From Natronorubrum texcoconense (lineage in GTDB: Archaea > Halobacteriota > Halobacteria > Halobacteriales > Natrialbaceae), in contig NZ_FNFE01000007.1 of assembly GCF_900100335.1 (NCBI RefSeq), positions 1 to 64,000 of the forward strand: a stretch of 64,000 nucleotides of DNA. Direction: 5' to 3'. The translations under genes and the position numbers were made by a program. Positions 59,086 through 60,970 of this stretch are shown one piece after another. The notes below the pieces were generated by a model, which saw nothing but the letters and a program-made list of their open reading frames with translations, ran no database searches and was not told the origin of the DNA. Within the stretch, counting starts at the first letter, position 1; every line of letters starts with the position of its first letter.

Positions 59086-60447
59086 TTACACGAGACCGAG
59101 CGAGAGGACGACCAAGAACGCCGCAAACAGCAGACAGAGGACGGTGCCCGCGGCCAGTCTCACGTTCTCCTTTGCCTTCTCGTGGATCGGCATCTCGGCG
59201 TACTCCTCGCGGAAGGCCTCGAGGTTCTCCTGATCGTAGAAGTACTTGGTATCGAACGCGAACCGCTCGGTCACGGCGCAGCCAGTACAGACCGGTTCGC
59301 CCACGAGTCGCTCCGTCTCGATGTGGTCGTCGCAGTTGATGCTCCCGCAGTTGGTACAATAGGTGTAGGTCTCGTTCGCGCCGTCGGCGCCGCAGTGGAC
59401 GCACTGGCGAAACTCGTTCGTCGTGGTCGCTCTCGAGGGACCCGCGGCGTAGTGGCCGTACCGATACTCGTACTCGCCCAGCGAGACGCGCGAGCGAACG
59501 TGGGGCACGTAGACCGGGTCGATCGACCAGATCGAGATATCCGACGGTCTCGGGGTACAGGTCTTCTCGTAGTCGACGTTGTTGCCGCCCGTGTACTGGA
59601 CCGTCGTGGTGTGGACCTGCTGGAGCCGATCGATCGCCCACTGTTTGTAGGTCGTCTCGGTCCGGCCGAATCGCCGCCGTTCGACGCCGTCGAAGGTTTC
59701 CTCGAGATTTCGATCCTCGAGGTCGATGCGGGGGGCCGACGGGTTCGCGACCAGTTCCTTGACGTCGCCGGTCTCGATCCGCGGCGTGTCGCCCTCGGCG
59801 CGGATCACGAGGTCGTCGGACTCGTCGACCTGGTGGACGATGCCGACGCTCGTCTCGAACGTCGCGTTCGTTCTCGTGTGGACGGTCACCATCGGCTCGA
59901 GCGAGACGGTCGTCTCCGGCGTCGGGATCATCGCGGGCTCGAGGTTCTCGATCTCACGGGACGCTTCGAAGACCGGCGCGTCCCGCCCGCAGGTCGGGTT
60001 GGTCGGCCGGAGGGCCTCCTCACAGAGGATCTCGATCCGGCCGTTGTAGAGGTCCATGCCGATCTCCTCGCCGATCTCCCGAAGGTCCGCGCCGTCGAGC
60101 AGTTCCATCCCGCCGTCCCGTCTGGCACCGAGGTCCTGTGCGTACTCTCGGGCGGGAGCAGTGAAGCGTCCAGTCGTCACCACCATCCCCCGGACGGGCC
60201 CGTCGTAGTCGTAGGTCGTGACCGCCGAGTGGAGCTTCTGGATAACCGGACGGCTGACGGTCTCCGTGTGTTTGCACTCGACGACGACCGCACGTCGGCT
60301 CCCGTCGACGACCTCCTCCATCAGAATATCCCGCCCCTCGTCGGCCGTCCGCCTCGATTGGCGGACGTTCTCGTAGCCCAAGTGGCGGAACACGTCCTCC
60401 ATCAGGTCCTCGAACTCGTAGCCCGAGAGGTCGTCGAGTATCGCCAT
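59086..60447 (-). CDS. Membrane-tethered Mrr-like nuclease with zinc ribbons
   Basis: 453 residues from ATG 60447 (MAILDDLSGYEFEDLMEDVF). The first 140 residues are an Mrr-type PD-(D/E)xK domain: FEDLMEDVFRHLGYENVRQSRRTADEGRDILMEE with the catalytic Asp and RRAVVVECKHTETVSRPVIQKL with the ECK pair. A middle beta-rich region (about 170-330) is unassigned. Near 346-392 four cysteine pairs (CVHCG, CTNCGSINC, CTGC) form one or two zinc ribbons. The last 25 residues (VRLAAGTVLCLLFAAFLVVLSLGLV) form a membrane span, so the protein is tail-anchored with the nuclease in the cytoplasm. No methylase gene adjoins, making a type IV-like or repair/quality-control nuclease more likely than a classic R-M enzyme. 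Confidence 0.8.
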   Translation of the reverse strand: MAILDDLSGYEFEDLMEDVFRHLGYENVRQSRRTADEGRDILMEEVVDGSRRAVVVECKHTETVSRPVIQKLHSAVTTYDYDGPVRGMVVTTGRFTAPAREYAQDLGARRDGGMELLDGADLREIGEEIGMDLYNGRIEILCEEALRPTNPTCGRDAPVFEASREIENLEPAMIPTPETTVSLEPMVTVHTRTNATFETSVGIVHQVDESDDLVIRAEGDTPRIETGDVKELVANPSAPRIDLEDRNLEETFDGVERRRFGRTETTYKQWAIDRLQQVHTTTVQYTGGNNVDYEKTCTPRPSDISIWSIDPVYVPHVRSRVSLGEYEYRYGHYAAGPSRATTTNEFRQCVHCGADGANETYTYCTNCGSINCDDHIETERLVGEPVCTGCAVTERFAFDTKYFYDQENLEAFREEYAEMPIHEKAKENVRLAAGTVLCLLFAAFLVVLSLGLV

Positions 60448-60568: not shown

Positions 60569-60970
60569 ATGACAACTGACCCCGACGATCTCGAGTTGAC
60601 CGACGCCGAGGAGCAGGCCCTCCACGAACTGCAGCTGGGCATCGAGCACATCCACCGGGCGTACGGGACCCTCCTCGAGTTCCACCACGATCTCGGCCAC
60701 GCAATGGATCGGATGAGCAGCGCCGAGGATGCCCTCCGCGAGGCCGGTCACGACGAGTGGGCGGACGATCTTCGCGACGAGCACCTCCCCGCAGGGGCGA
60801 TCAGCGACCAGTGGACGTTCGAACTCGTCGAAGAGTTCTCGACCGAGTTCCTCGATGAGGTCGACGACTTCGAAGCCGCGGTCAGGGACGAACTGGCCGA
60901 CGGACTCGATCACGTAACCGAGCGCCGCCAGAAGCGACGGTTGCGCGACCGCGCGACGGACGAGCGGTAA
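60569..60970 (+). CDS. Conserved haloarchaeal hypothetical, helical
   Basis: 133 residues, mostly helical and acidic: EEQALHELQLGIEHIHRAYGTLLEFHHDLGHAMDRMSSAEDAL, then HDEWADDLRDEHLPAGAISDQWTFELVEEFSTEFL. Histidines are abundant in the first helices (HIHRAY, FHHDLGHAMD), which could bind metal, but no family is recognised. It is divergent from the nuclease gene with about 120 bases between. The function is unknown. Confidence 0.7.
   Translation: MTTDPDDLELTDAEEQALHELQLGIEHIHRAYGTLLEFHHDLGHAMDRMSSAEDALREAGHDEWADDLRDEHLPAGAISDQWTFELVEEFSTEFLDEVDDFEAAVRDELADGLDHVTERRQKRRLRDRATDER

Follow-up and report, generated by a model that had tools for sequence, protein, structure and literature searches.

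How might a solitary restriction-type nuclease with a hydrophobic C-terminus act in a haloarchaeon, and on which DNA? The question arises from a gene of Natronorubrum texcoconense located in the window, by which we mean the whole stretch of 64,000 nucleotides that was analysed. A sequence-only reading had described the product as one protein that joins an Mrr-type nuclease domain, a beta-rich middle, a zinc region and a C-terminal hydrophobic span, and had proposed that a nuclease held at the membrane could guard DNA entry. The gene is indeed a single, exact open reading frame with these four parts in this order (Table 1). It is present in one copy in the host genome, another contig of which carries a second, short Mrr-like gene. 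The window is chromosomal, as indicated by the core genes that it contains, an ATP-synthase-like operon among them. None of its 55 called genes encodes a recognisable restriction, methylase or defence neighbour, and the PADLOC matches in the window are weak, to generic ATPase and similar families. The original remark that no methylase or restriction gene lies nearby is thus correct for this chromosomal locus but does not extend to many plasmid-borne relatives, as detailed below.

Table 1. Coordinates of the nuclease gene, its domains and the related features discussed in the text.
Feature	Position	Strand	Evidence or remark
Whole gene, predicted tail-anchored Mrr-type nuclease	59086..60447	-	453 aa, ATG start at 60447
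Mrr_cat / MspJI-AspBHI-like PD-(D/E)xK domain, residues 1-132	60052..60447	-	Pfam, fold matches, conservation
Beta-rich middle domain, residues 145-345	59413..60015	-	AF2 pLDDT 92.7; invariant residues
FYVE-like double-zinc module, residues 349-390	59278..59403	-	Profile, Foldseek, ligand conservation
C-terminal hydrophobic helix (predicted tail anchor), residues 429-453, ends protein	59089..59163	-	90/90 relatives; modelled helix
Neighbouring gene, 133-aa protein	60569-60970		Divergent from nuclease gene; no Pfam match
Copies with predicted dead nuclease, L019 and L020	G197:C1:3356150-3357511; G371:C1:1100311-1101666		
Remote archaeal relatives, 542-559 aa, without membrane span	L190:5964-7589, L191:6433-8058, L192:7424-9100		
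Hachiman (HamA/HamB) and TmtA-like gene near family gene	L050:2075-5571, L050:16186-21090 (pJ7-1)		
Small-gene run with DUF7567 and DUF7568	L050:14167-16017 and equivalents on other plasmids		
Conjugation-like VirB4/relaxase/TraD operon	L148:880-10365 (pNYT1)		MOB-suite type non-mobilizable
HD/Cas10-like large subunit of type III CRISPR	L108:3922-6372		By eye

The N-terminal part of the protein matches the Pfam domain Mrr_cat (PF04471) over residues 4-124, with an E-value of 9.9e-25 and 87.3 bits against a cut-off of 21, and the same Pfam domain is found in all 53 aligned family members. The active site residues E13, D40, E57 and K59, which come from the DEGRDI...VECKH motif, are all present in the window copy, in agreement with the initial description of an intact Mrr-type PD-(D/E)xK domain. 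Across the family, all 97 sequences compared have D40, and 94 of them also have E57 and K59, the exceptions to intact catalytic residues being L019, L020 and L030. The folds closest to the modelled domain are those of AF1548 (1y88; Z 14.0), AspBHI (Z 13.2), MspJI (12.5) and EndoMS (12.3), and Foldseek matches the domain to MspJI with an E-value of 2e-5. Single-sequence search yielded no solved relative.

The middle domain (approximately residues 145-345) was rightly called beta-rich and uncharacterised. Structure prediction with AF2, in which it was modelled together with the remaining C-terminal residues, gives a beta-rich fold with a mean pLDDT of 92.7, for which neither the PDB nor a viral structure library offers a credible match. 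Within this domain, the invariant Y-T-G-x-N-N-V-x-Y-x-K-x-C at residues 285-297 stands out as the family's most striking conserved motif. Similarity to triphosphate-tunnel (CYTH) or Med18-like proteins was considered and dismissed (Foldseek E-values of about 0.5-2, probability at most 0.05, rmsd 14-17 A); CYTH proteins carry an ExExK motif, which was not seen in the middle domain. Nor did VIA-align detect a meaningful relationship, the best Z-score being 5.4, to ribosomal proteins.

The region that follows had been described as zinc ribbons. The eight cysteines and histidines at residues 349-390 are arranged as CX2C-X11-CX2C-X4-CX2H-X11-CX2C, which is the FYVE spacing, and these ligands are kept in 95-97 of 97 sequences. 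Searched against the PDB, the family profile retrieves the FYVE domains of EEA1 (E 0.0045) and RUFY1 (E 0.04), both with modest E-values, and Foldseek pairs the modelled module with 2yw8 (probability 0.85 at 24% identity, with a weak E-value) and with Hrs (0.80); Pfam itself reports FYVE in one family member only (E 0.04). Separate zinc ribbons were therefore rejected: the spacing of the ligands and the matches in profile and fold speak for one cross-brace module, named FYVE-like rather than FYVE because the E-values are modest. The likeness to EEA1, RUFY1 and Hrs lies in the eight-ligand pattern CX2C...CX2C-X4-CX2C/H...CX2C and in the profile and fold matches; the difference is that the sixth ligand here is a histidine and that the RHHCR motif, by which eukaryotic FYVE domains bind PI3P, is absent, the corresponding stretch being YTYCTNCG. 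Lipid binding by this module therefore cannot be assumed. The literature search on FYVE in archaea returned nothing useful.

Beyond the zinc module, the protein ends in a hydrophobic stretch that is predicted to form a helix (residues 429-452). For 90 distinct full-length relatives, we took the best 19-residue window within the last 45 residues by Kyte-Doolittle mean. All 90 score between 1.98 and 3.38; for comparison, a value of 1.6 is attained by 16% of 349 other long proteins encoded at these loci. The 19-residue stretch is uncharged in 84 of the 90, and in 89 the protein ends no more than 10 residues from it. The tail accepts substitutions faster than the other domains while its hydrophobicity stays constant, as expected of a membrane span. 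Elsewhere in the N. texcoconense protein, the Kyte-Doolittle maximum is 0.62, with no further hydrophobic span; neither a signal peptide nor a second span was seen, so that the enzyme should face the cytoplasm. The predicted C-terminal anchoring of the family proteins in the membrane is thus well supported by sequence.

The tethering proposal had been staked on homologues keeping this span, and the outcome depends on evolutionary depth. Within the family, the proposal withstands this test: the span is kept in every full-length relative tested and the order of domains is unchanged, down to about 27% identity; members from other Halobacteriota (L105, L106, L108, L193 and L194) still end in a hydrophobic helix, and those that were aligned are 27-32% identical and keep the full architecture. 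More remote proteins of 542-559 aa (in genomes G608, G687 and G463) contain an N-terminal zinc ribbon, the Mrr domain and a related middle, followed at the C-terminus by zinc fingers in tandem. These proteins, as well as a frame-broken gene in G602, share the nuclease-middle-zinc core and lack the membrane span. Either the core predates the anchor, or the remote relatives have lost it; the anchor thus defines the clade and not the whole superfamily.

The family is widespread and patchy, with matches at E 1e-10 in 178 of 392 Halobacteriales genomes, some of which are fragments only; members are also found within the genus Natronorubrum. In the tree, a Natrialbaceae chromosomal clade that includes the window gene is separated from a second, broad clade that contains all sampled plasmid copies; each of these groups is one side of a branch with support 99, and the basal long-branch placements are unsure. 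No virus-borne copy was found in IMG/VR, and the phage collection yielded only a partial Mrr match at 27% identity in a Salmonella record; this absence is neutral with respect to a defence role. No description of the family architecture was found in the family libraries and papers searched. About 2 kb from the relative at L108 lies a protein that, judged by eye, resembles the HD/Cas10 large subunit of a type III CRISPR system.

A survey of gene neighbours across haloarchaea, which had been suggested as a check, revealed chromosomal synteny in Natrialbaceae and plasmid copies among defence genes. In Natrialbaceae, the nuclease gene occupies a conserved syntenic position across genera, which is indicative of vertical inheritance of this clade. 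The small divergent gene next to it (Table 1) is shared by 67 of 81 Natrialbaceae genomes. Of the 30 loci examined, 17 have it without the nuclease gene, which is cleanly missing, so that this neighbour was rejected as a partner and serves as a landmark. An ATPase_2/DUF234 gene located just upstream was likewise dropped as a candidate partner, being found in 4 scattered loci, too few for such a role. Several haloarchaeal genomes contain remnants of the gene (L195-L200), mostly N-terminal pieces of 37-60 codons, which we regard as truncated remnants and not as a short form of the protein.

The plasmid copies present a different context. A full-length copy is encoded on at least 71 haloarchaeal plasmid records, in 69 of the 71 with at least 80% identity to the Haloarcula taiwanensis protein, and the plasmid clade spans host families. 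VirB4 is encoded on at least 44 of 60 listed family plasmids compared to 171 of 413 Orc1/Cdc6 plasmids (Fisher p 8e-8), with the caveat that the plasmid records are not phylogenetically independent and that large plasmids carry more of everything. Usually, the family gene lies tens of kilobases from the transfer genes; on pNYT1, it is directly downstream of a VirB4-relaxase-TraD operon. That operon is conjugation-like, and MOB-suite types the plasmid as non-mobilizable. On pJ7-1, the family gene is located between Hachiman (HamA E 2e-47, HamB E 0), a PDC-S39 candidate (E 6e-223) and a TmtA-like protein; BREX-5 genes are found elsewhere on the same plasmid. Other family plasmids encode PD-Lambda-4_A, or an HmaB-like methylase and PDC-S27 beside the family gene. 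Downstream of many plasmid copies runs a conserved, divergently oriented set of small genes encoding DUF7567, DUF7568 and two proteins without a Pfam match; no literature on DUF7567/7568/7577 was found. Defence genes are intrinsically common in plasmid neighbourhoods, which weakens the defence reading that this context suggests.

Purifying selection acts across the family (dN/dS 0.07-0.26) and apparently reaches beyond catalysis. The L019 and L020 copies, which occupy the syntenic locus in two sister species of the genus Natronorubrum, share the replacements E57A, K59E and Q70E. Since these two copies split, the Mrr domain has accumulated 13 synonymous vs 4 non-synonymous changes, and neutrality is rejected with p 8e-6, an estimate that comes from one pair by simple counting. 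The predicted dead nuclease thus appears to be maintained by selection, and therefore part of the function would require no cutting, at least in these two species.

Taken together, these observations lead us to favour, with a probability of roughly one half, the reading that the protein is a stand-alone, membrane-tethered endonuclease of the type IV kind (Mrr/MspJI-like) that would cut entering DNA. The C-terminal helix would insert into the cytoplasmic membrane and leave most of the protein on the cytoplasmic side; the FYVE-like module and the beta-rich domain would hold or position the nuclease and might recognise a feature of the membrane or of the DNA; and the nuclease would cut DNA arriving through the membrane from a virus, by plasmid entry or by conjugation. 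Being kept at the membrane, the enzyme would do less harm to the host nucleoid. The copy in the window would then be the vertically inherited chromosomal version, and conjugative-type plasmids would carry the sister clade and disseminate it within their defence cargo. We lean towards defence because the patchy spread, the clean absence of the gene and its decayed remnants are as seen for dispensable defence genes; to be dispensable and yet to persist vertically is characteristic of defence genes, although it is not proof. Specificity for modified DNA, as in type IV enzymes, is possible given the MspJI/AspBHI-like fold and the role of Mrr in Haloferax. A more elaborate version, which we put forward only tentatively, is a widespread archaeal entry defence that arose independently of SNIPE, the bacterial membrane nuclease discussed below: the FYVE-like and beta-rich module would recognise a site of DNA translocation in the membrane and position the Mrr domain there to cut the DNA as it passes, the gene would be traded between chromosomes and conjugative plasmids, and dead versions in some species would act as non-cleaving blockers or regulators.

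The same observations can be read in other ways. A large, conserved, non-catalytic module adjoining the membrane would also suit a suicide nuclease triggered by membrane stress, in which the FYVE-like and beta-rich parts and the transmembrane helix sense viral perturbation and both host and viral DNA are cut. Zorya and Kiwa are systems that detect perturbation of the membrane (PMC12904381), and ZorD has an Mrr-like domain. We nevertheless consider this rather unlikely, given that a permanent tether fits local and not genome-wide cutting and that a partner gene is conserved in neither the chromosomal nor the scattered loci. The abundance of full-length copies on plasmids, mostly together with VirB4, their spread across host families and the arrangement on pNYT1 could instead point to a factor for entry exclusion or competition by which conjugative plasmids act against a second plasmid, with the chromosomal copies being domesticated descendants or cousins. 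The usual distance to the transfer genes argues against such a role, as do the chromosomal, apparently vertical history of the Natrialbaceae clade and the deepest relatives, which, where checked, are not plasmid-linked; we hold this explanation to be unlikely.

The Natrialbaceae genes, located outside defence islands and in long-term synteny, would fit a stable host function equally well, so that a housekeeping nuclease for membrane-associated DNA, serving in repair, segregation or the processing of DNA during uptake, has to be weighed too. Strong purifying selection and the window devoid of nearby defence genes would agree with such a function, for which we nonetheless see little probability: more than half of the sampled genomes of the order lack the gene, close relatives have a clean gap at the same site, others retain decayed pieces, and the plasmid copies keep company with defence genes. 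The least probable explanation, in our judgement, is a soluble type IV restriction enzyme in which the C-terminal span serves as a hydrophobic helix for oligomerisation and not as a membrane anchor. It would account for the remote relatives with the same core that lack the span; the unbroken, mostly uncharged and strongly hydrophobic 19-residue stretches at the extreme C-terminus, the sequence of which is free to vary, are hard to reconcile with it.

Among known systems, the protein can be compared with restriction enzymes and with membrane-based defence. MspJI and AspBHI, the fold of which the nuclease domain shares, have an N-terminal SRA-like domain for recognition of 5mC and neither a zinc module nor a transmembrane segment; the middle domain of the present protein has no match to them. 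With the Mrr proteins of type IV restriction, namely HVO_0682 of Haloferax volcanii and E. coli Mrr, it shares the PD-(D/E)xK domain of the Mrr_cat type and a solitary occurrence without a methylase, but here the Mrr domain is N-terminal and is followed by the beta-rich, FYVE-like and transmembrane modules. Haloferax Mrr acts against GATC-methylated DNA (PMC6471742, PMC7776575). By its published distribution, the HVO_0682 family is absent from Natrialbaceae (PMC6471742), where the family described here is common. ZorD and the PADLOC candidate PDC-S02 likewise contain an Mrr-like nuclease domain (E 6e-8 and 6e-13, respectively), but only the Mrr stretch, near the C-terminus of these profiles, matches; in PDC-S02, positions 240-355 of 390 align, short of a full-length match, and the protein has no helicase and no accompanying ZorAB, in contrast to Zorya, in which ZorD joins a SWI2/SNF2 helicase to the Mrr domain.

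The closest parallel is functional. SNIPE, a bacterial nuclease of the inner membrane, cleaves phage DNA while it is being injected and becomes toxic without its transmembrane segment (PMC13190303), and membrane localisation is one way in which nucleases tell foreign from own DNA (2026 review, PMC12904381). This precedent and the plasmid relatives among defence genes make guarding of DNA entry plausible for the haloarchaeal protein. The common plan, predicted in our case, is a single protein with one transmembrane helix, a recognition domain in the middle and a cytoplasmic nuclease. SNIPE follows the order N-terminal transmembrane segment, DUF4041 and GIY-YIG nuclease, whereas the family described here has the Mrr nuclease, beta domain, FYVE-like zinc module and C-terminal transmembrane helix; Pfam finds neither GIY-YIG nor DUF4041 in the protein, and no homology to SNIPE was detected. 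The best reading seems to be that of a functional analogue unrelated in sequence, not a member of the SNIPE family. The question concerns nearly half of the sampled haloarchaeal genomes, which carry a family annotated on plasmids just as 'restriction endonuclease', and the combination of a FYVE-like zinc module with a predicted membrane anchor in archaea is of interest for the origin of membrane-recognition domains. If the protein acts at the membrane, Archaea would have independently built a counterpart of SNIPE, and the sparing of host DNA by anchoring would become testable in genetically tractable haloarchaea.
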